Source of the DNA: Hyphomonas neptunium ATCC 15444
GTDB lineage: Bacteria > Pseudomonadota > Alphaproteobacteria > Caulobacterales > Hyphomonadaceae
Reading direction: 5' to 3'
Length of the DNA stretch: 64,000 bases
NCBI RefSeq assembly: GCF_000013025.1
Contig: NC_008358.1
Coordinates: forward strand, 1,054,001 to 1,118,000
Shown here: positions 29,550 to 54,763 of the stretch, piece by piece
How the letters are laid out: each line of letters opens with the position of its first letter
Numbering within the stretch: the stretch's first letter is position 1
Translations under genes and position numbers: made by a program
Notes under the pieces: model-generated
Databases searched by the model: none
What the model was told of the DNA's origin: nothing
The model's input: only the letters and a program-made list of their open reading frames with translations

Positions 29550-29565
29550 AAAAGATATATCTATT
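29550..29565 (+). promoter_or_regulatory. Island operator, copy 1 (leuC-like operon)
   Basis: AAAAGATATATCTATT, 16 bases upstream of the GTG start at 29581. It matches the shared AAAWGATATATCWTTT element around a perfect GATATATC core. Confidence 0.75.
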
Positions 29566-29580
29566 GAGTTTGAGGGATTA

Positions 29581-30972
29581 GTGGCGACCTTATTTGACAA
29601 GCTGTGGGATATGCACCGGGTGGGTGATGCGGGCGACGGGGACGACCTGATCGCCATCGACCGGCTGTTGCTGCATGAGCGCACGGGGGGGGTGGCGCTG
29701 AAATCTCTGGCGGCGGCCGGGCACCGCGTGCGCGACCCGGCGCGCGTATTCTCGATCATGGATCATATCGTGTCGTTCCGGCACGGACGGGGGCGCGATG
29801 AGGCGCGCAGCCCTGGCGGGGAAGCGTTCATCGTCGAAACCCGCGAGATGGCGCAGACAGCGGGCATTCACCTGATTGATACGGATAACCCGGCGCAGGG
29901 GATTGTGCATGTCGTGGCGCCGGAGCTGGGCATTGCGTTGCCGGGGCTGACGCTGGTGTGCCCTGACAGCCATACGTGCAGCCTGGGGGCGCTGGGCGCG
30001 CTGGCCTGGGGCATCGGCTCCAGCGACGCCGAACATGCGATGGCGACCGGCACGCTGCGCGCGGCAAAGCCAAGACAGATGCTGATCCGCGTGGCGGGCA
30101 GGCTTAGCCCCGGCGTTTCGGCAAAGGATCTGGCGCTTTATATCATTGCGCGGTTTGGCTCGGATGGCGGCAAGCGCTGCGCGATTGAATATGCGGGCGA
30201 GGCGATTTCCGATCTGAGCATCGAGGGGCGCCTGACGCTGTGCAATATGGCGGTGGAGTTTGCCGCGTTTACGGCGCTGATTGCGCCGGATGCCAAGACG
30301 CTCGACTATGTCAGTGGGCGGCCGTTTTCGCCTTCAGGCGCGCAGGTGGAAACCGCCCTGGCGCATTGGCAGACGCTGCGCACGGATGAAGGCGCGGAGT
30401 TTGACGAGGTGATTGAGGTAGACGCCGGCAAGGTGGCGCCGCAGGTGAGCTGGGGAACGAGCCCGGAGGATAGCCTCGCGCTGACAGACGCGCTGCCCGC
30501 AGACGCGAGCGCGCGGGCGCTGGCCTATATGGGGCTGACGGCCGGGCAATCGGTCAAAGGTCTTGCGATTGGCGGGGCGTTTATCGGCTCGTGCACCAAT
30601 GGGCGGCTGAGCGATCTGAAGGCGGCGGCGGAAATTCTCAAAGGACGCCGGGTTGCGCCGGGAGTGCGCGCGGTGTGCGTGCCGGGCTCTCAAGCGGTGA
30701 GCCGGGAAGCAGAAGCGCTGGGCATCGACCGGATATTCAAGGATGCCGGGTTTGAATGGGGCGCGCCGGGATGTGCGATGTGTTTCTATGCGGGCGGCGA
30801 AACCTTTCCGCCGGAGACGCGCGTGATGTCGTCCACCAACCGCAATTTTGAGGGCCGGCAGGGGCCGGGCGTGCGCACCCATCTGGCAAGCCCGGCTGTG
30901 GTGGCGGCGTCTGCCATTGCGGGGCGTATTTGTGCGCCATCTGACATTCTTGTTGAAGGAGGCGTTGCCTGA
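29581..30972 (+). CDS. LeuC-like large subunit of an isopropylmalate/aconitase-type hydro-lyase
   Basis: A 463-residue aconitase-superfamily large subunit. Early landmarks SIMDHIVSF (family: P-DH--) and VCPDSHTCSLGALGALAWGIGSSD are present. The cluster cysteines are Cys338 in GSCTNG and Cys398/Cys401 in GCAMC. The usual CSMCLAMN tail is altered to CAMCFYAGGE, which marks it as a paralogue and not the leucine-pathway enzyme. It should reversibly dehydrate or isomerise a hydroxy-dicarboxylic or -tricarboxylic acid. GTG start with GAGGG just upstream; the island operator lies in the leader. Its stop overlaps the small-subunit start by one base. Confidence 0.88.
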   Translation: MATLFDKLWDMHRVGDAGDGDDLIAIDRLLLHERTGGVALKSLAAAGHRVRDPARVFSIMDHIVSFRHGRGRDEARSPGGEAFIVETREMAQTAGIHLIDTDNPAQGIVHVVAPELGIALPGLTLVCPDSHTCSLGALGALAWGIGSSDAEHAMATGTLRAAKPRQMLIRVAGRLSPGVSAKDLALYIIARFGSDGGKRCAIEYAGEAISDLSIEGRLTLCNMAVEFAAFTALIAPDAKTLDYVSGRPFSPSGAQVETALAHWQTLRTDEGAEFDEVIEVDAGKVAPQVSWGTSPEDSLALTDALPADASARALAYMGLTAGQSVKGLAIGGAFIGSCTNGRLSDLKAAAEILKGRRVAPGVRAVCVPGSQAVSREAEALGIDRIFKDAGFEWGAPGCAMCFYAGGETFPPETRVMSSTNRNFEGRQGPGVRTHLASPAVVAASAIAGRICAPSDILVEGGVA

Positions 30973-31595
30973 TGCCGAGCCCTTTTCGTCACCATCGCGG
31001 ACTGGCTGCGGCGCTGCCGGTCGACAATATCGATACCGACCAGATCATTCCCTCGCGGGAGATGAAGACGGTCAGCCGCGACGGGCTGGGCGAGGGGCTG
31101 TTTGCGGGCTGGCGCTATACAGAGCCGGGTGGGCGCGAGCCGGTGGCGGATTTTGTGCTGAACCGGCCTGAGCAGGCGGGCACGTCAATCCTGATTTCCG
31201 GATCGAATTTTGGCTGCGGATCATCGCGGGAACACGCCGTCTGGGCGCTGATGGATTATGGTGTGCGGGCGGTGATTGCCAAATCGTTTGGCGAGATTTT
31301 TCATGGCAACTGTCTGCGCAATGGCATCTTGCCGGTTACCCTGCCGGAAGAGGACATTGACCGCCTGATCGCGCAGGCGAGCGGCGGCGAGATCATGATT
31401 GATCTTGCCGCGCAGACAGTGACGGCCGGCGCGCTGCCGGGCTGGACGGGGCATTTCGAGATTGGCGCCTATTCCAAGCGGTTGCTGCTGGAGGGGCTCG
31501 ACCCGATCGGGCTGACGCTGTTGCAGGCGCCTTCCATCAGTGCGTTTCAGGAAGCGGACGCCAGGGCGCGCCCCTGGGTTTATTCCGCTGGCTGA
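30972..31595 (+). CDS. LeuD-like small subunit of the hydro-lyase
   Basis: A 207-residue swivelling domain partner of the preceding gene: VDNIDTDQIIPSREMKTV, the substrate loop ISGSNFGCGSSREHAVWAL, and NCLRNGILPV are standard. It forms the heterodimer with the LeuC-like subunit in the cytoplasm. Its 3' end overlaps the convergent CaiB gene by 16 bases. Substrate choice in this family depends on a loop near residues 30-40 (here REMKTVSRDGLG), which differs from leucine-pathway sequences as far as I can judge by eye. Confidence 0.9.
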   Translation: MPSPFRHHRGLAAALPVDNIDTDQIIPSREMKTVSRDGLGEGLFAGWRYTEPGGREPVADFVLNRPEQAGTSILISGSNFGCGSSREHAVWALMDYGVRAVIAKSFGEIFHGNCLRNGILPVTLPEEDIDRLIAQASGGEIMIDLAAQTVTAGALPGWTGHFEIGAYSKRLLLEGLDPIGLTLLQAPSISAFQEADARARPWVYSAG

Positions 31596-32785
31596 GCTTC
31601 GCTGACTTCGACAAGGCCGCGGCTGATGAGACTGTCGATCTGGTCCTGCGCGTGGCCGAGGGATTTCAGGATTTCCACCGAATGGGCGCCGATGCGCGGG
31701 GGGTCAAGCATCAGGCCAGGGCGGTGATCGTCCAGCGTGATGGGCAACGCGGGCAGCGACACGGCGCCGCCTTCAGGCAGTTCCATATCCAGCAGGCCGC
31801 CGCTGGCGAGGAGGTGGGGATCGTCGAGCAGATCTTCCGGGCGCTGAATGGGCGCGAAGGGCAGGCCGATCTTTTCGAGCTTGTCCATCAGGTCCTGTTT
31901 CGAATAGCCCGCGAACAGGGCGCGCAGGCGCGGGAGAATTTCCTCGCGGCGGGCGACACGGTCGTTGTTGCCGGCGAGGCTGGCGTCTGCGGCCCAGTCT
32001 GCCAGGTCAAACGCCTTGCAGAAGGCCGTCCACTGACTATCTGAGACAACGCCGACGAAGACTTTCTCGTCATCCTTTGCATCAAACACGTCATAGACCG
32101 CCCAGGCAGAGACGCGCGTGGGCATCGGCGCAGCAGGCGAGCCGGTGACGGCGTATTGGGCAATATGCTGGCCAACGAGGAAGACGGTGGTTTCAAACAG
32201 GGACGCGGTGACGTGGCGGCCCTTGCCGGTGGTCTGGCGTTCATTGAGGGCGGCGAGCACGCCGATGGCGCCGAACATGCCGCCGGTGACGTCAATCACC
32301 GAGGCGCCGGCGCGCAGGGGCCGGCCGGGCGGGCCGGTCATGTAGGCAAGGCCGCCCATCATCTGGGCAACTTCGTCCAGCGCGGTACGGTGGGCATAAG
32401 GCCCGTCAAGGAACCCTTTTTCAGAACAGTAGATGAGCCGGGGATTGCGGGCGGCGAGGGCCTCATAGCCAAAGCCGAGCGCATCGAGCGCGCCGGGGCG
32501 GAAGTTTTCGATAAAAATGTCTGCCTGATCGGCGAGGGCGAGGGCGATGGCTTTGCCCTCCTCGGATTTGAGATCAACCGCGAGGCTTTTCTTGTTGCGG
32601 TTATACATCGGGAAATAACCCGCACCCGAGCCTTTGAGACGGCGGGTCTTGTCGCCGCCGATGGGCTCGACCTTGATGACCTCTGCGCCGAGATCGGCGA
32701 GGACCAGGCCTGCCGCAGGGCCCATCACCATATGGGTGAATTCCAGCACGCGCAGGCCTTTCAGCGGTCCGCCGGTCTCACTCAT
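31580..32785 (-). CDS. CaiB/BaiF family (class III) CoA-transferase
   Basis: A 401-residue class III CoA-transferase: LKGLRVLEFTHMVMGPAAG, LADLGAEVIKVEPIGGD, and the catalytic aspartate probably in the TALDEVAQMMGG stretch near residue 140. These enzymes move CoA from one acyl-CoA (often succinyl-CoA) to a free carboxylic acid. It diverges from the HMG-CoA-lyase homologue across a shared island operator. It could activate the acid that the lyase then cleaves. A second family member is encoded at 52351. Confidence 0.92.
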   Translation of the reverse strand: MSETGGPLKGLRVLEFTHMVMGPAAGLVLADLGAEVIKVEPIGGDKTRRLKGSGAGYFPMYNRNKKSLAVDLKSEEGKAIALALADQADIFIENFRPGALDALGFGYEALAARNPRLIYCSEKGFLDGPYAHRTALDEVAQMMGGLAYMTGPPGRPLRAGASVIDVTGGMFGAIGVLAALNERQTTGKGRHVTASLFETTVFLVGQHIAQYAVTGSPAAPMPTRVSAWAVYDVFDAKDDEKVFVGVVSDSQWTAFCKAFDLADWAADASLAGNNDRVARREEILPRLRALFAGYSKQDLMDKLEKIGLPFAPIQRPEDLLDDPHLLASGGLLDMELPEGGAVSLPALPITLDDHRPGLMLDPPRIGAHSVEILKSLGHAQDQIDSLISRGLVEVSEAQPAE

Positions 32786-32835: not shown

Positions 32836-32851
32836 AAATGATATATCTTTT
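32836..32851. promoter_or_regulatory. Island operator, copy 2 (divergent CaiB / HMG-CoA lyase)
   Basis: AAATGATATATCTTTT between divergent genes, 51 bases from the CaiB start and 47 from the lyase start. A weaker copy with GATATAAC lies at 32870-32885, 13 bases before the lyase start. Confidence 0.8.
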
Positions 32852-32897: not shown

Positions 32898-33848
32898 ATG
32901 AGCAGCGTATTGATCAGCGAAGTTGGACCGCGAGACGGGCTTCAGAACTGTAAGGCCGTGATGCCGACCGAGGCTAAGAAGCGCTGGATTGCGGCGCTGG
33001 CGGATGCGGGCGTGCAGGAAATCGAGATCGGGTCGTTTGTGTCGCCCAAGCTGCTGCCGCAGATGGCGGATACGGGCGAGATCCTGGATTTTGCCGTGAC
33101 GATTCCGGGGCTGACCGTGGCGGTGCTGGTGCCCAACCTGAAGGGCGCGGAGGCGGCGATTGCCGGCGGGGCGCACAAGATCACCCTGCCGCTTTCGGTT
33201 TCGGAGACCCATTCGCTGCGCAACATCCGGCGCACGCATGCGCAGGTGATCGACGAGGCGCGGGCGATTGCGGCGCTGGTGAAATCCCTCCCGGAGAGGA
33301 AGCGGCCGCATTTTGAAGGGTCGCTGTCGACGGCGTTTGGCTGCACGCTGGAGGGGCCGGTGCCGGAGGCGACGACCCTGCGCTGCGCCGAGCAGCTGAT
33401 GGCAGCGGGCTGCGATGAGGTGGGCCTGTCGGACACGACGGGGTATGGCGATCCGGCGTCTGTGAGGCGGCTGATCCGGGCGGTTCGGGGTGTGATCGGG
33501 GCGGAAAACCTGACCGGCGTGCACCTGCACAACACCCGCGGGCTGGGCCTTGCCAATGCGCTGGCCGCCTATGATGAGGGCATCACGACGTTTGATGGCT
33601 CGCTCGGCGGGCTGGGCGGGTGCCCGACGGCGCCGGGCGCCAGCGGGAATGTTGTGACCGAGGACATGGTGTTCATGTTTGAGGCGATGGGCATTTCGAC
33701 GGGCATTGATCTGCGCAAGCTGATGGCGACGCGCGAGATGGTGGCAGAGGCGTTGCCGGGCGAGGAGCTTTATGGCTTCACCCCGAAGGCGGGTCTGCCG
33801 CTGGGATTTAAAGGTGAGCCGGTGCCGGCTCCGGTGGCAGCTGGCTAA
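32898..33848 (+). CDS. HMG-CoA lyase-like aldol-cleaving enzyme
   Basis: A 316-residue DRE-TIM metallolyase of the HMG-CoA lyase type: EVGPRDGLQNC at the start, metal-ligand region GVHLHNTRGLG, and the catalytic loop GGLGGCPTAPGASGNVVTED with its cysteine. The HMG-CoA-lyase signature usually read as GCPYEG is GCTLEG here. It should split a 3-hydroxy-acyl-CoA with a tertiary alcohol into acetyl-CoA or similar plus a keto acid. The start at 32898 has AGGTGG 6 bases upstream; an earlier in-frame start would run through the operator. Confidence 0.88.
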   Translation: MSSVLISEVGPRDGLQNCKAVMPTEAKKRWIAALADAGVQEIEIGSFVSPKLLPQMADTGEILDFAVTIPGLTVAVLVPNLKGAEAAIAGGAHKITLPLSVSETHSLRNIRRTHAQVIDEARAIAALVKSLPERKRPHFEGSLSTAFGCTLEGPVPEATTLRCAEQLMAAGCDEVGLSDTTGYGDPASVRRLIRAVRGVIGAENLTGVHLHNTRGLGLANALAAYDEGITTFDGSLGGLGGCPTAPGASGNVVTEDMVFMFEAMGISTGIDLRKLMATREMVAEALPGEELYGFTPKAGLPLGFKGEPVPAPVAAG

Positions 33849-33863
33849 AAAAGCGGGGGCGGG

Positions 33864-35312
33864 GTGCGGGCAAATCTTCCAGCGCTGATTACGCTGATAG
33901 TCTATGCGGTGTTGCTTGTAGGTGTCAGCCTGTGGGCGAGCCGCAAGGTGCGCTCGGAGGCGTCGTCTTTTCTTCTGGGCGGGCGCTCTCTGGGGCCGCT
34001 GGTTTCGGGGCTTGCCTATGCCGCTTCGAGTTCCAGCGCGTGGGTGCTGCTGGGCTATTCGGGCTTTGTGTATGCGACGGGGCTTTCGGCGCTGTGGATG
34101 ATCCCCGGCATTCTGCTGGGCTATGGCGCGGTGTGGCTGTTTGCGGGGCCGGTGTTGCAGGCGGCAAGCCGGGACAAGGACCAGCTGACGCTGACAGCGT
34201 TCCTGACCGAGACGGCCGGGCCGCGCGTGGCGCGCCTGATCCGGATTTCGGCGACGGTGATGATCGCCTTCTGTTTTTCCTACTATATCGCGTCTCAGTT
34301 CCAGGGCGCGGGCGTGGCGTTTGACGATCTCTTCGGTATCGGGATGAGCGGCGGCATCATTCTCGGGGCGATTATCATTCTGGCCTACACATTTGCGGGC
34401 GGGTTTCTGGCGGTTTCGGTGATCAATACCGTGCAGGGCGTGATCATGATGCTCGTCGCGATCCTGTTGCCGGTGCTGGCATTCTCTGCGGCGGGCGGGG
34501 TGAGTGGCATCGGCGCGGCGCTGGAGGATGTGCCCCCTGAGTATCTCGCGACATTCGGCGGGCGTGCGGGATGGATCGCGGGCGGCTTTGCGCTCGGCAT
34601 GACGGCGACGGGATTTGGCGCGCTGGGCCAGCCCCACCTCATCAGCTGGATCATGGCAGCGCGGGACACCAAAGCGCGCGTAATGGGCGCGGGCGTGGCG
34701 ATCGGCTGGGGCGCGGTAGTCTATGCCGGGATGGCGGTGCTGGGGCTTTCGGGGCGGGCGCTGTTTGGCGCCGACGCGCCGGCGGAAGGCATCTTCTTCA
34801 AGCTGGCCGGCGATTTGTTGCCGGGCGTTCTGGCGGGGATCGTGGCGGCGGCGATCCTCTCGGCGATCATGTCGACGGTGGATAGCCAGTTGCTGGTGGC
34901 AAGCGGGGCGATCAGCCATGACCTTGGCGCGGCGCGTTTGATGGGCGGACGCACAGTGCTGGCGACGCGGTTGGCGATGCTGGTTGTGAGCGGGGTTGCG
35001 GTCGTGCTGACGCTGGCCTTGCCCGCGACGATCTTTGACCGGACGCTGTTTGCGTGGACGGCGCTGGGGGCGAGTTTCGGGCCGGTGGTGGTCGTGAGGG
35101 CGTTTGGCGGGCGGCCGGGCGGCGCCGCGGTGCTCGCGTCGATCCTGGCGGGCTTTGTGACCTCGCTGGCTTATGAATTTGTCCTGAATTCCGGGCCGGG
35201 CGCCGTGTGGGCACGGACGGTTCCGTGGATCGCTGCCTTTCTGGCGCTCGCCGTGACCAGAATTGTTGCAGGGCAGCACAATCAGGCGCTTGGCGCGCCT
35301 TCCGACTTGTGA
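33864..35312 (+). CDS. Sodium:solute symporter family permease
   Basis: A 482-residue inner-membrane carrier of the SSS (PutP-like) family with about thirteen helices. FLLGGRSLGPLVSGLAYAASSSSAWVLLG matches the sodium-binding first core helix, and GFALGMTATGFGALGQPHLISWIMAA and SAIMSTVDSQLLVASGAISHD the later core. GTG start 15 bases after the lyase stop, with only a G-rich ribosome site. Probably co-transcribed with the lyase gene, so it is a likely importer of the island's carboxylate substrate or an intermediate. Confidence 0.9.
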   Translation: MRANLPALITLIVYAVLLVGVSLWASRKVRSEASSFLLGGRSLGPLVSGLAYAASSSSAWVLLGYSGFVYATGLSALWMIPGILLGYGAVWLFAGPVLQAASRDKDQLTLTAFLTETAGPRVARLIRISATVMIAFCFSYYIASQFQGAGVAFDDLFGIGMSGGIILGAIIILAYTFAGGFLAVSVINTVQGVIMMLVAILLPVLAFSAAGGVSGIGAALEDVPPEYLATFGGRAGWIAGGFALGMTATGFGALGQPHLISWIMAARDTKARVMGAGVAIGWGAVVYAGMAVLGLSGRALFGADAPAEGIFFKLAGDLLPGVLAGIVAAAILSAIMSTVDSQLLVASGAISHDLGAARLMGGRTVLATRLAMLVVSGVAVVLTLALPATIFDRTLFAWTALGASFGPVVVVRAFGGRPGGAAVLASILAGFVTSLAYEFVLNSGPGAVWARTVPWIAAFLALAVTRIVAGQHNQALGAPSDL

Positions 35313-35317: not shown

Positions 35318-35348
35318 AAAAGATATAACAATAAAAGATATATCTAAC
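35318..35348 (+). promoter_or_regulatory. Island operator, copies 3 and 4 in tandem (DUF1838 gene)
   Basis: AAAAGATATAACAATA (35318-35333) and AAAAGATATATCTAAC (35333-35348) share one base and are 15 bases apart, about one and a half helical turns. They end just before the GGAGGA ribosome site at 35349. Confidence 0.75.
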
Positions 35349-35358: not shown

Positions 35359-36261
35359 ATGCACACCGCTCGTTATCTGGCGCTGGCTGCTGCAGCCTTT
35401 CTGGTGTCTGCCTGCGCGTCACTGGGAGAGGCGCAAGGCGCGAAACTTGATCCGTCAGTGCCCTCCGATGCGACAGCCATTTTACGGAAAATCCAGTGTT
35501 CGACAGTCGATGATGAACCGGTGGTTTTCTGGTGGCATGGCAAGGCGCTTTCCCGCCGCCAGGGCGAGAAAGACATTCACATGTTCGACGTGGAGGGGAT
35601 GAATATCCGGGCCTGCTCGTCAATCACGAATCAGGAAGGGGTGAAGGGCTTTCACCTCGTTTCACGCGAGATACTTCTGTATAAGGACAAAGATACCGGC
35701 GAGGTTCTGAAGACATGGACGAACCCATGGTCGGGTGAGGCTGTCGAGGTTCTGCACGTCGCCAATGATCCTGTGAACTTCAAATCCTATGAGGTCGACC
35801 GCGAGGGAAAACCGGCTGTCTGGCAGGGTGAAATCGGTGGGGCCTCCTGGTGGTATCGTTCGACGTTTCCGCTCTGGTATCCCAATCCGCTTGCCGGCGA
35901 CTTCCAGAAGGAGATTGGTGGAACCTATCACGCAACGGAGCTGTTCAACTTCTTTGGGGGTACGGACGATCTGCTGGACCCCAAGACAACATCTGCGGTC
36001 GTGACGGTAGGCTGGACACGGATTGCCGATTGGCTGCCCTGGATGATGATGAATGGCCGGGAAGGCGTAATGTATATGCATACGGCAGGCCGCAAGCTGT
36101 CGAATTTTGACGAACTGTCTGACACGATGAAAGCGGAGATCGCTGCGCATTATCCGGAATATGCCAGCCCGCCGCCCTCTGGCGATCCGCGCAAGAACAT
36201 GACGAGCTGGACTTACTATAAAGGAATATCGGATGGATCAATTTCCAAGCCTGAACGGTAA
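35359..36261 (+). CDS. DUF1838 lipoprotein
   Basis: A 300-residue exported lipoprotein. The signal peptide ends in the lipobox LVSAC (Cys19). The mature part carries the DUF1838 hallmarks: FDVEGMNIRAC, a long Trp-rich middle (SWWYRSTFPLWYPNP), and GRKLSNFDELSDTMKAEI with WTYYKG at the end. Function is unknown; the family is often found near genes for breakdown of aromatic or terpenoid compounds. It has a strong GGAGGA ribosome site and two operator copies directly upstream. Confidence 0.85.
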   Translation: MHTARYLALAAAAFLVSACASLGEAQGAKLDPSVPSDATAILRKIQCSTVDDEPVVFWWHGKALSRRQGEKDIHMFDVEGMNIRACSSITNQEGVKGFHLVSREILLYKDKDTGEVLKTWTNPWSGEAVEVLHVANDPVNFKSYEVDREGKPAVWQGEIGGASWWYRSTFPLWYPNPLAGDFQKEIGGTYHATELFNFFGGTDDLLDPKTTSAVVTVGWTRIADWLPWMMMNGREGVMYMHTAGRKLSNFDELSDTMKAEIAAHYPEYASPPPSGDPRKNMTSWTYYKGISDGSISKPER

Positions 36262-36333: not shown

Positions 36334-36840
36334 TCAGAACGTCTTGCCGTCATAGGATTTCCAGTCGGCCGAGATGAATTTCTCGTCGATCAGTGTACGT
36401 TGGAAGAGGCGATCCTTCTTGAACCACTGCCAGGTGCGCGAGCGCGACTGGCCATCATCAGAGAGCTGGATCATTTCATAGAGATAAAGGTCCGGCTCAC
36501 CGGTGCGGGTCCAGTTGAGCATGGTGGTGCGCTTGAAGTCATCGAGCGGCACGTCGCTTGCCCAGCCCACGATAAGTTCATTGTCCCAGGCGATGCGGCC
36601 ATTGACGATATTGGCGGGGAAATCCCGCACTTCGCTGCGGCCATCCGCCCACCGATAATAGTTTGTCTGGTGGTAGGCGGGACCTGTTTCAGGGAAACGG
36701 CAGAGCAGGCGCGAGACGTGCTCGTCGGTCTTGTTCCCTTCCGCGTCATAGTAGCGGTACACGCCTTCCCACACGCCTTCATGGCGCGCGAGAAGCGGCA
36801 TGATCTTTTTCAGTTCTGTTGAAGTGATGTTGTCTGTCAT
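36334..36840 (-). CDS. Lipocalin-like (DUF3598-type) protein, paralogue of the 53499 gene
   Basis: A 168-residue soluble protein without signal peptide. Its blocks HEGVWEGVYR, CRFPETGPAYHQT and SRTWQWFKKDRLFQRTL recur in the same order in the gene at 53499, so the two are paralogues. The pattern suggests a small beta-barrel that binds a hydrophobic ligand; the closest family I can suggest is DUF3598. It diverges from the TonB receptor gene across an island operator and ends at an intrinsic terminator. Confidence 0.65.
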   Translation of the reverse strand: MTDNITSTELKKIMPLLARHEGVWEGVYRYYDAEGNKTDEHVSRLLCRFPETGPAYHQTNYYRWADGRSEVRDFPANIVNGRIAWDNELIVGWASDVPLDDFKRTTMLNWTRTGEPDLYLYEMIQLSDDGQSRSRTWQWFKKDRLFQRTLIDEKFISADWKSYDGKTF

Positions 36841-36949: not shown

Positions 36950-36965
36950 AAATGGTATATCATTT
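36950..36965. promoter_or_regulatory. Island operator, copy 5 (divergent 36334 gene / TonB receptor)
   Basis: AAATGGTATATCATTT, differing from the perfect palindrome AAATGATATATCATTT at one base. It lies 110 bases from the minus-strand start and 57 from the receptor start. Confidence 0.85.
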
Positions 36966-45577: not shown

Positions 45578-45580
45578 GGA

Positions 45581-46892: not shown

Positions 46893-46908
46893 AAAAGATA
46901 TATCATTT
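46893..46908. promoter_or_regulatory. Island operator, copy 8 (divergent methyltransferase / REDY-SDR operon)
   Basis: AAAAGATATATCATTT, identical to the copy at 44026, 47 bases from the methyltransferase start and 34 from the REDY-like start. Confidence 0.88.
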
Positions 46909-46941: not shown

Positions 46942-47256
46942 ATGAGCACCAAGATTGTCGCACTTTTCAATCTCAAACCCGGCATTTCGGTCCCGGACTA
47001 TGAAAACTGGGCCAAGACCAAGGATATTCCAACGGTCAACGGACTGAAATCGGTTGATGCATTTGAAGTGTTCCGCGCCACCGGCGTGCTCGGTTCGGAT
47101 GCAAAGCCGCCTTATGCCTATATCGAGATCATTGATGTGGCCGATATGGCGGGCTTCGGCGGCGAAGTGGGCAGCGAGGCGATGCAGAAGATCGCCGGCG
47201 AGTTCCAGGCTATGGCCGACGATCTTGTGTTCATCCTGACCGACAAGCTCGGCTGA
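46942..47256 (+). CDS. REDY-like (HapK-type) small protein
   Basis: A 104-residue protein with a dimeric alpha/beta-barrel look: KIVALFNLKPGISVPDYENWAKTKDIPTVNGLKSVDAFEVF. This pattern resembles the REDY-like/HapK family, whose role is not settled; members sit in secondary-metabolite and degradation clusters. The start at 46942 has AGGGGAG 10 bases upstream. The SDR gene follows 10 bases after the stop. Confidence 0.7.
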   Translation: MSTKIVALFNLKPGISVPDYENWAKTKDIPTVNGLKSVDAFEVFRATGVLGSDAKPPYAYIEIIDVADMAGFGGEVGSEAMQKIAGEFQAMADDLVFILTDKLG

Positions 47257-47266
47257 GGGCAGGCGG

Positions 47267-48103
47267 ATGGGAACGCTTTCGGGTAAAACCGCTGTCATCA
47301 CCGGCTCTGGCCGCCGCAAGGGGCTGGGCGAGGCAATTGCCCGCAAGCTGGCCAGCGAAGGGGCGAATATTGTTCTCTCTGATGTTGGCAAGCCGCGCGA
47401 CGCGGCGACCGGCGAGGGCCATATCGGCACCACAGACGAGATGGAATCCATCGCAGAGGAGCTTCGCGGCCTCGGCGTGAACGTCTCCACCTGCGTCTGC
47501 GATGTGCGCAGCCTGGAAGAGGTGCGGGCGCTGGCAAAGCATGCTTCTGAAACGCACGGATCGCTCGACATCTGGGTGAACAATGCGGGCATCGGCTACA
47601 TCATGAAGCCGCTGCTGGAAGTTTCCGAAGCCGACTGGCGGGCCGTGATCGACGTGAACCTCACCGGGGCGTTCTTCGGCCTCAAGGCGGCGGCCGAAGC
47701 GATGATCGGGCAGGGTAAGGGCGGACGGATTGTCAACATCGCCAGCCAGGCGGCCAAATCCGGCTTCCCCCATGCGCAGGCTTACACCTCGTCCAAGCAT
47801 GGCCTTGTCGGCCTGGTACGGTCGGCGGCGATTGAGCTTGGTCCGCACGGTATCACGGTCAACAATGTCTGCCCCAACCATGTCACGACAGGCCTTGGCG
47901 CGTGGCAGAACGAGTATTTCTCGAAGGTTACGGGCGCTGCTTCTGTGGACGAGTACATGACCAACATGAAAAACCGCATCCCGATGCGCCGCCCCGGCCT
48001 GCCGGAAGACACCGCCAATGCGGTTGCCTGGCTGTGTACGGATCAGGCGGCCTATATCACCGCTGAAAGCATGAATGTTTCCGGAGGGGAGGAGCCCCAT
48101 TGA
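47267..48103 (+). CDS. Short-chain dehydrogenase/reductase
   Basis: A 278-residue SDR with the cofactor loop TGSGRRKGLG, NNAG at about residue 107, and the catalytic Tyr-x3-Lys in AYTSSKHG, with serine in NIASQAAKSG. It oxidises or reduces a secondary alcohol or ketone using NAD(P). The chain ends in the usual VSGGEEPH. It is followed by the deacetylase-fold gene with a four-base overlap. Confidence 0.93.
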   Translation: MGTLSGKTAVITGSGRRKGLGEAIARKLASEGANIVLSDVGKPRDAATGEGHIGTTDEMESIAEELRGLGVNVSTCVCDVRSLEEVRALAKHASETHGSLDIWVNNAGIGYIMKPLLEVSEADWRAVIDVNLTGAFFGLKAAAEAMIGQGKGGRIVNIASQAAKSGFPHAQAYTSSKHGLVGLVRSAAIELGPHGITVNNVCPNHVTTGLGAWQNEYFSKVTGAASVDEYMTNMKNRIPMRRPGLPEDTANAVAWLCTDQAAYITAESMNVSGGEEPH

Positions 48104-49008
48104 CCCAGTTGCCTAAAGACCCTGCGCCAGAAGGCTTCACCTGGCCGGGCGGCAAAAAGCTCGCCCTGTCGGTCGTCGTCAATGTCGAGGAAGGCGCCGA
48201 GCGCCGTATCGATGAAGGCGACAAGCGGCCTGAGCCTGTCGATGAGCTGGGCGCGGTGCCGGGCAAACCGATTCGCGTGCATGGCAACGAGACCAATTAT
48301 CAGTATGGCATCAATCGCGGCGCGCCGCGTGTGATCCAGATTCTCGACAAGGCTGGCATCAATGCGACCTGGACAGTCTGCGGCCTGGCGCTGGAAAAAG
48401 CGCCTTGGCTGGCCAAAGCCATCATGGAGCGGGGTGATGAACCCTGTAATCACGGCTATAAATGGGCGTTTACCGCTTTCATGGATGAGGATGCCGAGCG
48501 CGACTTCATTGCCAAGGGCACAGACAGCATTGAGAAGACCTGTGGCCGCAAGCCCGCCGGCTGGCTCTCGCGCTATCTGCATACGGACATCACGCGGCGC
48601 CTGATTCTCGAGCAGGGGTATTCCTACCATATGGACGATTATTCGGACGATTTTCCCTATTGGGCAAAAGTCCCGATGGCGGATGGTTCCGAAAAACCGA
48701 TGGTGGTTCTGCCCTATGCCATCGATTCCAATGACATGAAGTTCTGGCTCTCGCCGAGCTTCACGCCCGATATGTGGCTCGACTATGCCCGCCGCTCGTT
48801 TGACTGGCTGTATGAAGAAAGCCAGCGCGAAGGGGCGCGGATGATGAGCCTCGGCCTGCACCTGCGGATCATTGGCCGCCCTGGCCGGATCAAGGCATTT
48901 GCCGACTTTCTGGAGCATGTGAAGGGGCATCCGGATGTCTGGGTTGCAACGCGGGAGCAGATTGCCGCGCATTTCTCAAAGGAAGTCTCTGCCAGTACAG
49001 CGCGATAG
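48100..49008 (+). CDS. Polysaccharide-deacetylase-fold protein, PuuE-like
   Basis: A 302-residue member of the NodB-like deacetylase superfamily in the PuuE/allantoinase-like branch: VNVEEGAERR replaces the TFDDG motif, CNHGYKWAF carries a histidine of the metal site, and AGWLSRYLH is the next block. Members of this branch hydrolyse amide bonds of small molecules. The start is TTG at 48100, overlapping the SDR stop, supported by GGAGGAG 8 bases upstream. Chemistry in the island may be hydrolysis of an amide or acyl group. Confidence 0.85.
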   Translation: MTQLPKDPAPEGFTWPGGKKLALSVVVNVEEGAERRIDEGDKRPEPVDELGAVPGKPIRVHGNETNYQYGINRGAPRVIQILDKAGINATWTVCGLALEKAPWLAKAIMERGDEPCNHGYKWAFTAFMDEDAERDFIAKGTDSIEKTCGRKPAGWLSRYLHTDITRRLILEQGYSYHMDDYSDDFPYWAKVPMADGSEKPMVVLPYAIDSNDMKFWLSPSFTPDMWLDYARRSFDWLYEESQREGARMMSLGLHLRIIGRPGRIKAFADFLEHVKGHPDVWVATREQIAAHFSKEVSASTAR

Positions 49009-49030
49009 AAGAACAATAGGGAGGGCGGAC

Positions 49031-49642
49031 ATGAAGACGGTATCGTTGGGGGTGAGTCTGGTCGCCCTGATCTGCGCGGGATGCGCGACGCCTGCTGCGC
49101 CATCGGCGCCGCAGGCACCTGCATTGCTGGGGGCGGAAAATCCGTATCCGCTGCATCCGATCAACCTGCGCCGGACCACTCTGATCGTCCGTGATCTGGA
49201 AAAGTCCCTGCTTCTCTATCGCGACGCGCTTGGCTTCGATGTGGTCTATGATCAGGAGCTGACCTCGCCGGGGCTGGATACGCGCTATGGCGCGGACGGC
49301 AAGAACCGCTCCCGGCTTGTGCTGACGCAAACCAATAGCGGGGTCATGGGCATGCTCGGCCTCTGGCAGTTTCTTGATCCAACCGAAAAAGATACCGCCC
49401 CGCCCGATGAGGCAGACTTCACGCCAGGTGAAATCGTTCTCCTGTTCAACACAACGGATCTGGAAAGCCGTTTCGTTGCGGCCGCTTCTGTGCCCGGCGT
49501 GCAGGTGATCGGCGCGCCGGCGGAGCGGCGCTATCCCTCACCGGCTGGCGACATCATTGTGATGGTCTCGATGCTGGTCGACCCTGACGGGCATACGATC
49601 GAGCTCAACCAGATCATCTCCGATCCCCGCGCTTCAGAATAG
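49031..49642 (+). CDS. Lipoprotein with VOC (glyoxalase-like) domain
   Basis: A 203-residue exported lipoprotein: signal peptide with lipobox ICAGC, a Pro/Ala-rich linker, then a VOC domain from about residue 45 (RRTTLIVRDLEKSLLLYRDALGFDVVYDQEL to VDPDGHTIELNQI). VOC proteins are usually cytosolic, so a lipid-anchored one is unusual. The start at 49031 has GGGAGGG upstream. It ends the REDY-SDR-deacetylase operon. Confidence 0.85.
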   Translation: MKTVSLGVSLVALICAGCATPAAPSAPQAPALLGAENPYPLHPINLRRTTLIVRDLEKSLLLYRDALGFDVVYDQELTSPGLDTRYGADGKNRSRLVLTQTNSGVMGMLGLWQFLDPTEKDTAPPDEADFTPGEIVLLFNTTDLESRFVAAASVPGVQVIGAPAERRYPSPAGDIIVMVSMLVDPDGHTIELNQIISDPRASE

Positions 49643-49696
49643 CGCAGCGGCGTAATTTCCCTGGCCGTAGTCATTGACAGCGGCTTGGTCTGGTTT

Positions 49697-49714
49697 ACTT
49701 TGTCCGGACAAAGT
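49697..49714 (+). promoter_or_regulatory. Second-type operator, palindrome ACTTTGTCCGGACAAAGT
   Basis: A perfect 18-base palindrome centred on TTGTCCGGACAA, 17 bases upstream of the CitE-like start. It differs from the GATATATC elements. The TGTCCGGACA core recurs at the start codon of the first PrpD gene (54826). Confidence 0.75.
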
Positions 49715-49730
49715 TAGTGCGGATTGTCTT

Positions 49731-50555
49731 ATGCCTTCAACCTATCGCTCATTCCTGTTTGTTCCCGGCGCCCGGCAGGACCGGTTTGCCAAGGCGCTGG
49801 CTGCTGGGGCCGACGCTGCCATTATCGACCTTGAGGATGCCGTGCTGCCGTCTGAAAAGGACAAGGCCCGCGCCGATGTTCTGGGCTGGATAGATGCCTG
49901 GAGCGGCAAGGGGCTGGCCGTGCGGATCAACTCGCCCCGCAGCGCGCATGGATGCGCCGATATTGCCGCGTTCGCGGCCTCGGGCGCGCTGGCGAAGCTT
50001 GATTTTATCATGGTGCCCAAGGCGGAAACGGCGGTGGATCTTGAAATCGTCGCCGAAGCGCTTGGCGCGGATATTCCGCTGATCGCCGTTATGGAAAGCG
50101 GCCGGTCGCTCGCAAATGTACAGTCCGTGGCCGCCAGGGCGACGGGCGGCATGCTGTTCGGCGGGGCAGACTTCTCCGCAAGCCTGGGCGCAGACCTTGC
50201 CAATTGGGACGCGATGCTGACTGCGCGCGGATTGGTTGTGGCAGCCTGCGGCGCAGCCGGCGTGCCTGCCTATGACGTGCCATTCCTGGATGTGAAAGAT
50301 CCCGCCGGCCTTGCCGAGACGACGCACAAGGCGCGCCTGATGGGCTTCTCCGGGCGTGCGTGCATCCACCCCGACCAGGTTTCGGTCGTCAACGCGGCCT
50401 TCACGCCAAGTGAGGCCGACATCGCTGAAGCGCAGGCAATTATTGATGCGCTGAACAATGCTTCGGGCGGCGCAGTGCTGCACAAGGGCAAACTCGTTGA
50501 CCGCCCCGTCATTCTCGCGGCTGAGCGCGTGCTCGCCAAAGCCAAATCAGTCTAA
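49731..50555 (+). CDS. CitE-like HpcH/HpaI family acyl-CoA lyase
   Basis: A 274-residue TIM-barrel lyase of the citrate lyase beta/malyl-CoA lyase type. Blocks FVPGARQDRFAKALAAGADAAIIDLEDAV, the metal-binding glutamate in AVMESG and aspartate in FGGADFSASLG are conserved. It should cleave a 3-hydroxy-acyl-CoA such as malyl- or citramalyl-CoA into a keto acid and acetyl- or propionyl-CoA. The start at 49731 gives the standard N-terminus. It heads the block CitE-MaoC-acyl-CoA dehydrogenase-CaiB. Confidence 0.9.
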   Translation: MPSTYRSFLFVPGARQDRFAKALAAGADAAIIDLEDAVLPSEKDKARADVLGWIDAWSGKGLAVRINSPRSAHGCADIAAFAASGALAKLDFIMVPKAETAVDLEIVAEALGADIPLIAVMESGRSLANVQSVAARATGGMLFGGADFSASLGADLANWDAMLTARGLVVAACGAAGVPAYDVPFLDVKDPAGLAETTHKARLMGFSGRACIHPDQVSVVNAAFTPSEADIAEAQAIIDALNNASGGAVLHKGKLVDRPVILAAERVLAKAKSV

Positions 50556-50571
50556 GGAAGAAACAGACATC

Positions 50572-51093
50572 ATGGTACAGAACTGGAAACAGGTTGGCCC
50601 GAACCGCTATCGCGAAACCTTCGGCCGCTATTTCGAAGACTTCGAAACCGGCGACATTTACGAGCATCGCCCCGGCAAGACGGTCACCGAGTATGACAAC
50701 CACCTGTTTACGCTGCTGACGCTGAACACCCATCCGATGCACTTCGATGCGGAGTTTGCCAAGGCCTCCGAGTTCAAGCGCAATCTGGTTGTCAGCCCCT
50801 ATACCCTCGCGCTGCTGATCGGCATGAGCGTCACCGATACCAGCCAGAAGGCCATCGCCAATCTCGGCATGGACGAGGTGAAGTTCACCGCGCCGGTCTT
50901 TGCGGGCGACACGATCTATGGCGAGAGCGAAGTGCTGGGCAAACGCGAGAGCCAGAGCCGCCCCGGCCAGGGCATCGTGACCATCGTGACCCGTGGCTAC
51001 AATCAGGACGGCACGATGATCTGTACCTTCAAGCGCAACATGCTCATCCCCTCACGCGGCAACGCGGTTGAGGACAAGGTCGGCAATTACTGA
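50572..51093 (+). CDS. MaoC-family (R)-specific hydratase, mesaconyl/itaconyl-CoA hydratase type
   Basis: A 173-residue hotdog-fold hydratase: GRYFEDFETGDIYEHRPGKTVTEYDNHLF and NTHPMHFDAEFA, with the catalytic Asn/His region, then APVFAGDTIYGESEVL. It is closely reminiscent of MaoC enzymes that hydrate mesaconyl- or itaconyl-type CoA esters and that pair with CitE-like lyases. Its place directly after CitE and before the acyl-CoA dehydrogenase fits. Start at 50572, GGAAG upstream. Confidence 0.88.
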   Translation: MVQNWKQVGPNRYRETFGRYFEDFETGDIYEHRPGKTVTEYDNHLFTLLTLNTHPMHFDAEFAKASEFKRNLVVSPYTLALLIGMSVTDTSQKAIANLGMDEVKFTAPVFAGDTIYGESEVLGKRESQSRPGQGIVTIVTRGYNQDGTMICTFKRNMLIPSRGNAVEDKVGNY

Positions 51094-51128
51094 ATTCAGG
51101 CGACCCCATCAGGTCAGGAGAGCCCAAC

Positions 51129-52319
51129 ATGGCTGACACGACATATCTCAGTGAAGAAGACGAACGCCAGATCCTCGATTCGATCCAGAAATGGCTCGAA
51201 AAGAAGGTCGCCCCGGTGGCGATGCAGCTGGAACATGACAATGAATGGCCCGCTGATCTTGTCGCCGACATGACCGAGCTCGGCCTGTTCGGCGCGCTGA
51301 TCCATCCAGACTATGGCGGGCTTGGCCTGTCTGCGTCGACCTATACGAAGATCGTTACGATGATCTCGGAAGAGTGGATGAGCCTTTCGGGCATTTTCAA
51401 TTCTCACCTGATGATGTCCATCGTTGTGCAGAAGTTTGGCACCGACAAGCAGAAGGAATACTGGCTTCCGAAGTTTGCCGCGGGCGAGCTGCGCGGCGCG
51501 CTGGGCCTGACGGAGCCGGACGCTGGCACCGACCTTCAGAGCATCCGCACGGTGGCCAAACGCAAGGGCGACAAATACGTCGTCAACGGAACAAAGACGT
51601 GGATTTCCAACGCCATTGAAGGCCACTGCGTGGCGCTTCTGGTCAAGACAGACCCCGACGCCCAGCCGCGTTACAAGGGCATGTCGATGCTCATTGTGCC
51701 GAAGATCAACCCGGAAACGCGCGCGCCTTTGCCGGGCGTCAAGAATGGCCGCAAGCTGGAAAAGCTCGGCTATAAGGGCATCGATTCGGGCGAATTCATA
51801 TTTGAAGATTATGAGTGCGACGCCGAGCTGTCTCTGGTGGGCGGCAAGGAGGGCGAGGGCTTCTTCATGGCAACCGGCGGGCTCGAGATTGGCCGGATCA
51901 ATGTGGCGGCTCGCTCTGTCGGGATTGCGCGGCGCGCGCTGCGCGAAAGCGTGCAGTATTCCCAGCTTCGCAAGACCATGGGAAAGCCGATCTGTGAGCA
52001 CCAGGCGATCCAGTTGAAGCTCGGTGAAATGGCGGCCAAGACGCGCGCCTCCGAACTGCTCGTTCAGGACGCCGCCGCAGCGTATGATCGCGGCGACCGC
52101 GTCGATATGGAGGCGGGCATGGCGAAGTATTTTGCTTCGGAAACGGCTGTTGAAGTGGCCACCGAGGCGATGCGTATCCACGGCGGATATGGATATTCGA
52201 AAGAGTACGTCATCGAGCGGCTTTACCGCGACGCGCCGCTGATGTGCATCGGCGAGGGCACGAACGAGATGCAGCGTATCATCATTGCCAAGCAGCTCGT
52301 GAAGCGTAATCCGGCCTGA
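51129..52319 (+). CDS. Acyl-CoA dehydrogenase
   Basis: A 396-residue FAD flavoprotein with the standard ALGLTEPDAGTDLQSIRT flavin-binding stretch, the GGYGYSKEYVIERLYRDA signature and catalytic-base glutamate in IGEGTNE. It introduces the alpha,beta double bond of a CoA ester that the neighbouring MaoC could hydrate. It is 35 bases after the MaoC gene with AGGAG upstream of the start. The most likely substrates are short branched or dicarboxylic acyl-CoAs, judged only by neighbours. Confidence 0.93.
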   Translation: MADTTYLSEEDERQILDSIQKWLEKKVAPVAMQLEHDNEWPADLVADMTELGLFGALIHPDYGGLGLSASTYTKIVTMISEEWMSLSGIFNSHLMMSIVVQKFGTDKQKEYWLPKFAAGELRGALGLTEPDAGTDLQSIRTVAKRKGDKYVVNGTKTWISNAIEGHCVALLVKTDPDAQPRYKGMSMLIVPKINPETRAPLPGVKNGRKLEKLGYKGIDSGEFIFEDYECDAELSLVGGKEGEGFFMATGGLEIGRINVAARSVGIARRALRESVQYSQLRKTMGKPICEHQAIQLKLGEMAAKTRASELLVQDAAAAYDRGDRVDMEAGMAKYFASETAVEVATEAMRIHGGYGYSKEYVIERLYRDAPLMCIGEGTNEMQRIIIAKQLVKRNPA

Positions 52320-52350
52320 TCAGCCCACAAAAATTAAAGGTATTCCGCAT

Positions 52351-53499
52351 ATGAAGCGACTGCTCGAAGGCATCCGTATTCTCTCCGTCGAACAGTACGG
52401 GGCAGGTCCTTATGGCACCCAGCTGCTTGCTGATCTCGGCGCGGAGGTGATCAAGGTCGAAGATGGTCAGCGGGGCGGCGACGTTTCCCGTACAGTCGGT
52501 CCTTATCTTCTGGGAGAGGGCGATTCCGACTTCTTTCAGACCTTCTCCAAGGGCAAGAAGTCCATCGACATCGACCTGAAGAGTCAGGAAGGTCGCGCCC
52601 TTTTCGATGATCTCGTGAAGTCTTCCGATGCGGTGGTAAACAATCTGCGCGGCGATCAACCGGCAAAGCTGGGTCTTGATTATTCCAGACTGCATTCGAT
52701 CAACCCGAAGATCGTTTGCGCGCATCTTTCTGCCTACGGACGGGATAATTCCCGCGCCGGCTGGCCAGGCTATGATTATCTGATGCAGGCCGAGGCCGGC
52801 TTCATGCTGGCCACGGGCGAGCCGGAAGGGCCGCCTGTCCGCTGCGGGCTTTCGATCATCGACTTCCATACCGGCAGCCAGCTGGCCACCGCAATTCTGG
52901 CGGGTATCCTCAGCGCGCAGCGCTCCGGCGAGGGCTGTGATGTGGACGTGACACTGTTTGACACGGCCCTGCATCAGCTGTCCTATCCGGCGACCTGGTA
53001 TCTCAATCGCGGGCATGCCACTGAGCGCCTTCCGCGGGGAGCGCACCCTTCGATTGCGCCGAGCCAGCTGGTGAAAACCAAGGATGGCTGGGGCCTGCTC
53101 ATGTGCCAGACGCCGAAATTCTGGGATCTTTTCTGCGAACTTGCCGAGGGGCAGCATCTCAAAGCCGACCCGCGCTTTGCCACCAATCCGGCGCGCCACA
53201 CCAATCTGGCTGAATTGACGGAGGTGGTCGACGCGCTTCTCAGCAAACGGACGAGCCAGGAGTGGATCGAACACTTTGCCGGGCAGGTGCCGTTTGCGCC
53301 CGTTCTTGATATTCCGCGCGCGCTCGACAATCCGTATCTGGACGAAACCCAGATGATTGAAATTGTCGCGCACCCTTCAAAGCCTGAGGGGCTCCGGACA
53401 CTGGCTTCGCCCTTCCGCGTCAATGGGCAGCGGCCTGTTACTTCGCGTGCGCCCGATCTTGGCGAGCACACGGCCGAATTCACAAAGGAACCTCGCTGA
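52351..53499 (+). CDS. CaiB/BaiF family (class III) CoA-transferase
   Basis: A 382-residue class III CoA-transferase: LLEGIRILSVEQYGAGPYGTQLLADLGAEVIKVED at the start and PGYDYLMQAEAGFMLATGEPEG carrying the likely catalytic aspartate. It should put CoA on the acid that the neighbouring dehydrogenase, hydratase and lyase then process, probably with succinyl-CoA as donor. The stop overlaps the start of the small lipocalin-like gene by one base. Confidence 0.92.
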   Translation: MKRLLEGIRILSVEQYGAGPYGTQLLADLGAEVIKVEDGQRGGDVSRTVGPYLLGEGDSDFFQTFSKGKKSIDIDLKSQEGRALFDDLVKSSDAVVNNLRGDQPAKLGLDYSRLHSINPKIVCAHLSAYGRDNSRAGWPGYDYLMQAEAGFMLATGEPEGPPVRCGLSIIDFHTGSQLATAILAGILSAQRSGEGCDVDVTLFDTALHQLSYPATWYLNRGHATERLPRGAHPSIAPSQLVKTKDGWGLLMCQTPKFWDLFCELAEGQHLKADPRFATNPARHTNLAELTEVVDALLSKRTSQEWIEHFAGQVPFAPVLDIPRALDNPYLDETQMIEIVAHPSKPEGLRTLASPFRVNGQRPVTSRAPDLGEHTAEFTKEPR

Positions 53500-53933
53500 T
53501 GTCACGATTTCCCGCCCACAAGGCGCATGAAGGTGTCTGGGAAGGCAACTACCGCCACCTCGCAGTGGACGGGCAGGAGGAGGGCCGTTTCCGCTCGCGT
53601 GTCACGTGCGAGTTTCCGGAGACGGACGGCGTCGTATACCGGCAGACCACCGAGCTCTGGACGCCGGAAGACGTCTACAGCAAGGCGAGTTTCGAAGGGC
53701 TCGACCGGGGCGACCACCTTTATTATGACGCGCCAAATTTTCATGGCCGCAGCTGGGAAACGCAGGGTGCTCACCTGATGCTGAACCTTATCCGCAAGGA
53801 CGAGCCCGGCGCCTATTTCGTCGAACTCATCATCATGGGCGAAGGCGGCAAGCACCGCGCGCGCACCTGGCACTGGTTCAAGGATGGCCAGATCTATCGC
53901 CGCACGCTGTGCGAAGAAACACGGGTGGCCTGA
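53499..53933 (+). CDS. Lipocalin-like (DUF3598-type) protein, paralogue of the 36334 gene
   Basis: A 144-residue soluble protein sharing HEGVWEGNYR, CEFPETDG...YRQT and RARTWHWFKDGQIYRRTL, in the same order, with the gene at 36334. It lacks a signal peptide. The repeat of a small ligand-binding-like protein in two operons of one island suggests that it handles a pathway intermediate. It ends the CitE operon, four bases from the convergent GntR gene. Confidence 0.65.
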   Translation: MSRFPAHKAHEGVWEGNYRHLAVDGQEEGRFRSRVTCEFPETDGVVYRQTTELWTPEDVYSKASFEGLDRGDHLYYDAPNFHGRSWETQGAHLMLNLIRKDEPGAYFVELIIMGEGGKHRARTWHWFKDGQIYRRTLCEETRVA

Positions 53934-53937
53934 CGGC

Positions 53938-54642
53938 CTACTTCCTCTGGCGGGTCAGCTTCATTTCATAGGCGAAGCGGCCGGCCGGGTGCAGGCTTTC
54001 GGAAACCAGGATCGCGCGTCCTGCGGTATCGATATAGCGCCGCAAGGTTCGCAATGCCGGTGAGCCGGAAGGTACTCCAAGCCGGGCGGCATCGGTTTTG
54101 CCCAGCGCAACCGCTTCCATCCGTTGAACGACATTCGCGACGGCCGCGCCATGTTCGCCTTCAATCCATTCGGAGATGGAGCCGTTCAGCTCGGCAACAT
54201 CCTCCAGCGCCGGGGCCAGATGGTTCAGCACAAGGATGGTTGTCACCGCGAGGGGGGCTTCCCCGCTTGCGCGGCGCAGGCCCAGATAGGCCATGTACGG
54301 ACCATCGACGCCCATGCGTTTGAGTTCAGCCGGGCTCGCGGGGCGCGTGCGCTCGGGAATGAAAACAGCATCGCGGGCGTATTGGAGGATCGATTCGAAA
54401 TCGCCGATGGGCTGGGCAAAGGCGGGCGTGGGCGGCGTGGTTACGACCGTGCCGACCCCGCGTCGGCGGGCAATCAGGCCGTCTTCGGTGAGAATGCGCA
54501 AGGCTTCGCGCGCCGTGTGGCGCGAGATGTCCTTCTCCTCGCACATCTCCATCTCTGTGGGCAGAGCGTCGCCGGGCTTGAGCTTGCCGGAGGCGATCAG
54601 CAGGCGAAGTTCATCGGCTATCTGCCGGTAACGCGGCTGCAT
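53938..54642 (-). CDS. GntR-family regulator with UTRA domain (HutC subfamily)
   Basis: A 234-residue repressor type: winged helix in residues 1-72 (YRQIADELRLLIASGKLKPGDALPTE, then DISRHTAREALRILTEDGLI), and a UTRA effector domain from about residue 90 to the end (RTRPASPAELKRMGV, MEAVALGKTDAARLGV, RRYIDTAGRAILVSESLHP). UTRA domains bind small molecules such as sugars or carboxylates. The start at 54642 gives the normal wHTH N-terminus. It is the only regulator visible in the island and diverges from the PrpD operon across an operator at 54748. Confidence 0.93.
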   Translation of the reverse strand: MQPRYRQIADELRLLIASGKLKPGDALPTEMEMCEEKDISRHTAREALRILTEDGLIARRRGVGTVVTTPPTPAFAQPIGDFESILQYARDAVFIPERTRPASPAELKRMGVDGPYMAYLGLRRASGEAPLAVTTILVLNHLAPALEDVAELNGSISEWIEGEHGAAVANVVQRMEAVALGKTDAARLGVPSGSPALRTLRRYIDTAGRAILVSESLHPAGRFAYEMKLTRQRK

Positions 54643-54747
54643 GGTGTTCAAAGCCCTCTCCCTGGTTCTGAATCGAGTATCTGTAATGACCACTCCCGAG
54701 GGTGGGGGCAATCCCGGCCGGAAACAGGGCAGGGCTGGTAAGAAAGC

Positions 54748-54763
54748 AAAAGATATATCAAAT
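54748..54763. promoter_or_regulatory. Island operator, copy 9 (divergent GntR gene / PrpD operon)
   Basis: AAAAGATATATCAAAT between the regulator (106 bases away) and the PrpD operon (63 bases away). Its place at the regulator gene fits autoregulation, although binding is unproved. Confidence 0.8.

Follow-up and report, generated by a model that had tools for sequence, protein, structure and literature searches.

HutC-type proteins are mostly repressors that are released by a small molecule. Excerpts of PMC4494728 give the usual operator consensus of this subfamily as NyGTMTAKACNy, with FarR, NagQ and SdhR deviating from it. Here we examine a motif that recurs in a 64,000-nucleotide stretch of the genome of Hyphomonas neptunium ATCC 15444 (the window; positions 1054001–1118000 of one contig, 3,705,021 bp long, with window coordinates equal to genome coordinates minus 1054000) and in a gene island that runs past its end. 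The motif would be the operator of a GntR-family, UTRA-domain (HutC subfamily) regulator, most likely R2, which is encoded shortly past the window end; a second GntR/UTRA-type regulator, R1, is encoded within it.

Like the HutC-subfamily repressors NagR/YvoA, DasR and HutC, R2 combines an N-terminal GntR winged helix (Pfam GntR, E = 2.8e-20, over the cut-off) with a C-terminal UTRA effector domain (Pfam UTRA, E = 8.9e-36, over the cut-off), and YvoA and DasR are among its closest solved relatives. The operator is likewise a short palindrome with a 4-bp gap between conserved pairs, as the excerpts of PMC4494728 describe for the subfamily. Its core, however, is GA-TATA-TC, with GA/TC replacing the GT/AC of the GTMTAKAC consensus given there. 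An earlier note on this DNA had remarked that HutC regulators prefer GT..AC sites, which agrees with that published consensus, yet by its domains R2 is GntR/UTRA. In our judgement the regulon is also unusually large compared with those of local HutC-subfamily regulators. The regulator family is known, while the operator core and the regulon are unusual for it. Among the matches listed in the literature for the operator core, GntR and H. neptunium, this regulon is not described, and none of those listed for the operator with GntR contains the core string.

Operator sites in the window and beyond

Searching the window with AAAWGATATATCWTTT at up to three mismatches gave nine matches, compared to 0.11 expected and at most one in any of 100 shuffles. 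The nine coordinates are exactly those of the clear copies reported earlier, and six of the nine contain the exact core GATATATC (0.25 expected). A scoring matrix was trained on 13 sites of the island, which themselves score 21.9–31.7 bits. By this measure a weak tenth copy at 32870 is doubtful, because it reaches only 11.0 bits. Beyond it and the nine sites, no position in the window reaches 10 bits. All sites are intergenic, given the gene starts chosen in the analysis, and divergent promoters make up five of the eight site-bearing regions, as had been proposed. The sites are also close to the assigned start codons, although the measured distances are 10–109 bp rather than the 12–110 first given.

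The features in window coordinates are as follows (sites carry no strand; gene annotation is from NCBIfam and Pfam, and operon limits are inferred):

29550–29565: operator site, 29.8 bits, before leuC-leuD (LeuCD-like dehydratase, 29581–31595, plus)
32836–32851: operator site, 31.4 bits, between coaT1 (31580–32785, minus) and hmgL-sss (32898–35312, plus)
32870: weak second copy beside the 32836 site, in the coaT1/hmgL-sss region
35318–35348: two abutting sites (35318 and 35333), from motif search and matrix score, before the DUF1838 gene d1838A (35359–36261, plus)
36950–36965: operator site between p36m (lipocalin-like, 36334–36840, minus) and the TonB receptor gene tbdrA (37023–39479, plus)
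39644–39659: operator site before an MFS transporter gene (39723–41294, plus)
44026–44041: operator site between glx1-mdr-abh (41283–43980, minus) and d1330-p44 (44073–45202, plus)
46893–46908: operator site between mtase-p45 (45212–46846, minus) and hapK-sdr-puuE1-glx2-ripC-ripB-acd-coaT2-p53 (46942–53933, plus)
53938–54642, minus: R1, GntR/UTRA-type regulator and possible co-regulator, behind site 54748; start 54642 was chosen, and the longest open reading frame starts at 54711
54748–54763: operator site between R1 and prpD1-prpD2-paaK-amid (54826–60185, plus)
60176–63959, minus: fad-aldh-ech genes, behind mem and the site at genome 1118652
63978–64000, onward to genome 1118634, minus: mem

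Across the whole genome, ten sites match with at most one mismatch, versus none for the reversed pattern, and nine of the ten fall inside the 41 kb from 1083550 to 1124415. At up to three mismatches the counts are 29 versus 6, with 13 of the 29 inside the same interval. A similar density of the motif elsewhere would have spoken against a regulon; the clustering of the good sites instead speaks for it. Shuffles, reversed-pattern counts and permuted matrices together rule out chance or AT-rich noise as the source of the motif. Four of the sites lie past the window end, and the tenth good site lies 111 kb beyond the island, between same-strand alpha/beta hydrolase and DUF1330 genes and before the hydrolase. 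The same site-hydrolase-DUF1330 arrangement is found in Hyphomonas polymorpha. In genome coordinates, the features past the window end are:

1118652–1118667: operator site
1118697–1119533, minus: R2, proposed binder
1119627–1119642: operator site
1119653–1120474, plus: d1838B
1120494–1124158, minus: cnh-pda2-pda3-isoc
1124195–1124210 and 1124400–1124415: operator sites
1124461–1126641, plus: tbdrB
1235515–1235530: operator site before the alpha/beta hydrolase gene

Genome-wide there are 34 copies of the bare core GATATATC and six of the reversed core. Outside the island, bare cores are paired a few kb apart at 475997/484256 and 2910060/2912908.

Thirty listed genes lie behind the sites of the window, operon membership being taken from spacing only, which bears out the figure of about thirty proposed earlier. 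The whole island comprises 41 listed genes, to which the hydrolase gene at 1235 kb is added.

Conservation of the sites in relatives

To place the motif in relatives, we used 61 genomes (own, same genus and same order), calling R1-like and R2-like genes at E up to 1e-30. The motif (at most one mismatch) occurs in 15 of these genomes, R2-like genes in 15 and R1-like genes in 10. Motif and R2 are found together in 13, and the motif is missing from 44 of the 46 relatives that lack R2. In the two genomes with the motif and no R2 (G017, G039), there is one imperfect site each, with no clear island gene alongside in the 20 kb fetched. Eleven genomes carry at least two sites; R2 is present in all 11 and R1 in 10, the one without R1 being G003.

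Sites are also retained at orthologous promoters. Ortholog slots had to reach 40% identity and half the length, with the start aligned and 200 bp of upstream sequence present, and a site was counted at 18 bits or more within 300 bp. Outside H. polymorpha, and with no selection for sites, one is present at 64 of 97 operon-leading slots, versus 9 of 124 operon-internal slots. Column-permuted matrices on the same slots give means of 0.42 (leading) and 0.26 (internal), and their largest counts are 28 for all 116 leading slots, 17 for the 97 leading slots without G034, and 4 for internal slots. Some of the nine internal cases head their operon in the relative, as fad does in G052 and G019. Sites still precede orthologous operons after rearrangement, for example in G052 and, spread over separate contigs, in G038. 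Site identity is 0.87, compared to 0.30 for the flanks (39 comparisons), although the former is biased upward because the compared sites were chosen for matching the matrix. Absence of the sites from orthologous islands had been named as a result that would count against a regulon; conservation came out in its favor.

One other way to read such a motif is as a shared promoter element or AT-rich architectural signal rather than an operator. Its placement shortly before start codons is compatible with this idea, as promoter elements also occur there. But the motif is palindromic, its distance to the start varies, it often lies between divergent genes, it is absent from nearly all R2-less relatives, and it is linked to R2-like genes outside the island, making this explanation extremely improbable. 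Genome-wide clustering and conservation at orthologous promoters both back the earlier proposal of one operator and one catabolic regulon, and judging from these sequence comparisons a single-operator catabolic regulon is almost certainly real.

Candidate regulators and their proposed action

R1 had been proposed as the default binder, being the only regulator in the stretch. Its apparent solitude is a window-edge effect, and R2, encoded just outside the window, fits better. The R2 gene is flanked by two perfect palindromes, and its counterpart in H. polymorpha PS728, the nearest named relative found, is 96% identical. R1 and R2 share 31% identity. R1, the only one of the two scanned against NCBIfam TIGR02018 (HutC proper), scores 87.8 bits against a cut-off of 220. 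Canonical HutC sites were considered for R1 and dropped: GTMTAKAC has no occurrence in the 84 kb of the island and its surroundings.

Presence alone does not separate the two regulators, because R2 is found in 11 and R1 in 10 of the 11 multi-site genomes. Own promoters were also compared, counting an 18-bit site if it fell within 350 bp ahead of an R2-like or R1-like gene. The loci used were 121 of 126 for R2 (L032, L053, L106, L184 and L186 were dropped for repeated or short upstream sequence) and 39 of 39 for R1, with the named R2-like loci being the best 80 of 588 relatives. An own-promoter site was found for 33 of 121 R2-like genes versus 3 of 39 R1-like genes, and those three are all island R1 genes with at least 60% identity. 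Permuted matrices gave a mean of 1.4 for the R2-like count and a maximum of 26 out of 121, near-identical column orders included. Among genes below 56% identity, the site precedes 24 of 107 R2-like and 0 of 33 R1-like genes (P = 0.001). As the 80 R2-like loci come from a collection searched for R2 only, we also give like-for-like counts: in a class sample searched alike for both regulators, the site is present for 6 of 27 R2-like versus 0 of 29 R1-like genes (P = 0.009).

More distant genomes show the same linkage. Sixteen named loci fall below 56% identity and have a site, and 12 of them were used (L039, L060, L070 and L098 were omitted; L060 has an R1-like gene). All 12 genomes have an R2-linked site; eight of them have no R1 relative (E up to 1e-20), and the other four have only relatives of 30–34% identity. 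Together the 12 contain 31 sites, compared to eight for the reversed pattern. G447, G450 and G451 each have one site (at most one mismatch), which by its coordinates precedes the R2-like gene; G449 also has one site, but at another position. Within the recognition helix, Ile73 is found in 33 of 33 site-bearing R2-like proteins versus 72 of 88 others (P = 0.006), and Lys76 in 29 of 33 versus 54 of 88 (P = 0.005). At L029 (G051:C1:1397503–1398219), an R2-like gene, 33% identical and with one reported in-frame TGA, stands beside a good site and island genes.

Several observations weigh against R2 as the binder or temper these comparisons. R1 is present in none of the genomes without a site, and presence by itself fits R1 equally or slightly better (P = 1.2e-10, versus 3.3e-9 for R2). 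Two genomes (G012, G056) have R2-like genes and no good site. No 18-bit site precedes 88 of the 121 R2-like genes, and the siteless orthologs include those in G048, G013, G003 and G011; the operator may have drifted there, or the proteins may act elsewhere. The scoring matrix was built from the island sites themselves, and the P values ignore the relatedness of genomes and proteins.

Could R1 bind the shared operator, either alone or together with R2 through competition, shared sites or a hierarchy? A site lies 105 bp before the R1 start, R1 accompanies the sites in nearly every multi-site genome, and at L060 and L074 R1-like stretches share a locus with an R2-like gene. On the other hand, of the 10 R1 genes in the 61-genome set only three are preceded by a site, no R1-like gene below 56% identity is, and there are genomes with R2-linked sites that lack any R1 relative. 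On the strength of the own-promoter, distant-genome and like-for-like comparisons, we rank R1 second and no longer regard it as the first choice; binding by R1 seems unlikely.

Another candidate is a regulator of a different family encoded elsewhere in the genome, for example of the DtxR type. According to excerpts of PMC2628430, operator oligonucleotides of the DtxR-type protein TroR from Treponema denticola contain the palindrome TTTTGATATATCAAAA, and like the island sites the TroR operator has the GATATATC core within an AT-rich palindrome. In those excerpts, however, the flanks differ (AAAA/TTTT on opposite sides) and the genes concern metal transport. No DtxR-type gene is among the annotated island genes, with annotation covering part of the open reading frames, and beyond the island the sites go with R2-like genes. 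Such a regulator is thus very unlikely.

We consider R2 the likely binder of the shared operator, and the regulon with R2 as its regulator is, taken jointly, only marginally less probable. From the positions of the sites, R2 would control itself and R1, along with about a dozen operons. In the absence of inducer, R2 would occupy the GATATATC sites near the start codons as a dimer, where a repressor could block RNA polymerase, and transcription would be shut off. Binding of a pathway intermediate by the UTRA domain would free R2 from DNA, turning on uptake (two TonB receptors, MFS and SSS) and catabolism together. We infer binding, repression and effector alike. These data link a HutC-type operator of non-canonical sequence to its probable regulator and outline a regulon of about 42 genes.

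Gene content and possible substrate

Uptake genes in the island encode an SSS transporter, an MFS transporter and two TonB receptors (NCBIfam/Pfam). CoA-related products are two CaiB-type CoA transferases, an HMG-CoA-lyase-like protein, an acyl-CoA dehydrogenase, a PaaK-like ligase and an enoyl-CoA hydratase, and those of the redox type are an MDR reductase, an SDR, an aldehyde dehydrogenase and an FAD oxidase. Hydrolase-type genes encode an alpha/beta hydrolase, an amidase, a CN hydrolase and an isochorismatase-type protein (isoc), along with three polysaccharide-deacetylase-fold proteins related to PuuE. Also in the island are genes for a LeuCD-like dehydratase, RipB-like and RipC-like proteins, two MmgE/PrpD proteins, two DUF1838 proteins, a DUF1330 protein, a HapK-like protein, two glyoxalase-like proteins and a methyltransferase-like protein, as well as the two GntR/UTRA regulators and several proteins without any match. 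For puuE1, the closest solved relatives include PuuE allantoinase, which for pda3 is the closest of all; isoc gives a match to N-carbamoylsarcosine amidase and a weaker one to 3ot4/3uao. The genome has three LeuC-like proteins, and the two outside the island are 52% and 49% identical to the island LeuC.

As in itaconate Rip and C5-branched diacid pathways, RipB-like, RipC-like and CaiB-type CoA transferase genes stand in one gene row. In contrast to the Rip pathway, the island Rip-like genes are adjoined by amidases, PuuE-like hydrolases and a LeuCD paralog. A plain itaconate pathway was rejected, as both Rip models stay below their cut-offs (RipC, 215.5 of 375 bits; RipB, 230.9 of 340 bits).

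Nicotinate-type routes run via maleamate or dimethylmaleate, with the amidase NicF or with the hydratase DmdAB and dimethylmalate lyase. The island resembles them in having an isochorismatase-type amidase, a LeuCD-like hydratase and a lyase in similar order; unlike in those routes, no nicotinate genes are recognised in the annotated island. Judging by enzyme class, we tentatively suggest that the substrate might be a cyclic imide degraded via a substituted maleate, though the chances are somewhat below even. The imide would be opened by PuuE-like hydrolases, and the half-amide cleaved by the isochorismatase-type amidase. The LeuCD-like enzyme would then hydrate the substituted maleate to a substituted malate, followed by CoA transfer to give a CoA ester and cleavage by lyases. 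Tetrapyrrole-derived maleimide fragments would be compatible with such a scheme.

Gene neighborhoods elsewhere bear on this scheme. Among the 80 named R2-like loci, the fetched flanks contain relatives of the following island genes: leuC (35), leuD (33), pda3 (20), pda2 (20), isoc (19), coaT1 (13) and hmgL (8). In G003 and G012, where R1 is absent at E up to 1e-30, an R2-like gene is retained together with pda2, pda3, isoc, leuCD, coaT1 and hmgL. Plasmid pJE1 groups isoc with two deacetylase-fold proteins, two LeuCD pairs, a CoA transferase, an HMG-CoA lyase and an isocitrate-lyase/PEP-mutase family protein, a further likeness to the nicotinate-type routes; no GntR is annotated in the 19 kb shown. 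The isoc-pda-pda unit occurs on plasmids of Sphingomonas (pJE1), Comamonas and Salipiger, and since these are three other genera, the chemistry is probably not confined to the family. The Comamonas and Salipiger stretches carry IclR- and LysR-type regulators.

A more specific idea, which we regard as improbable, is that the regulon encodes everything needed to take up and mineralise a pyrrole-derived pigment (linear tetrapyrrole or maleimide fragments). Such a route would start with TonB import and involve a lipocalin-like protein, whose predicted fold also resembles phycobiliprotein lyases and nitrobindin. It would go on through oxidative cleavage, opening of the imide, hydrolysis of the half-amide, hydration of a dialkylmaleate by the LeuCD paralog and CoA-dependent cleavage, with a single R2 operator controlling all of it and recurring ahead of R2-like genes across Alphaproteobacteria. 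p36m (36334–36840, minus) and the product of 53499–53933 (plus) are diverged lipocalin-like paralogs without a Pfam match. The predicted fold of p36m (predicted local distance difference test score, pLDDT, 92) has Foldseek template modeling (TM) scores to query of 0.70 for BFA1, 0.62 for CpeS lyase and ∼0.6 for nitrobindin, and is also near DUF3598 and the CpcS/CpeS lyases. Because this fold is broad, the match is weak evidence for a pigment.

The DUF1838 protein d1838A (model pLDDT 85.6) has no convincing solved relative, with TM to query at most 0.29 among the 50 matches listed; one paper among those listed names the DUF1838 domain. The scheme places DUF1838, DUF1330, HapK-like and lipocalin-like genes in a single inducible pathway for which a specific chemistry is guessed, and both the regulator and the likely food molecule are open to direct test. 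The window has one recognised tRNA gene, for tRNA-Leu (gag), at 18135–18219 (plus).

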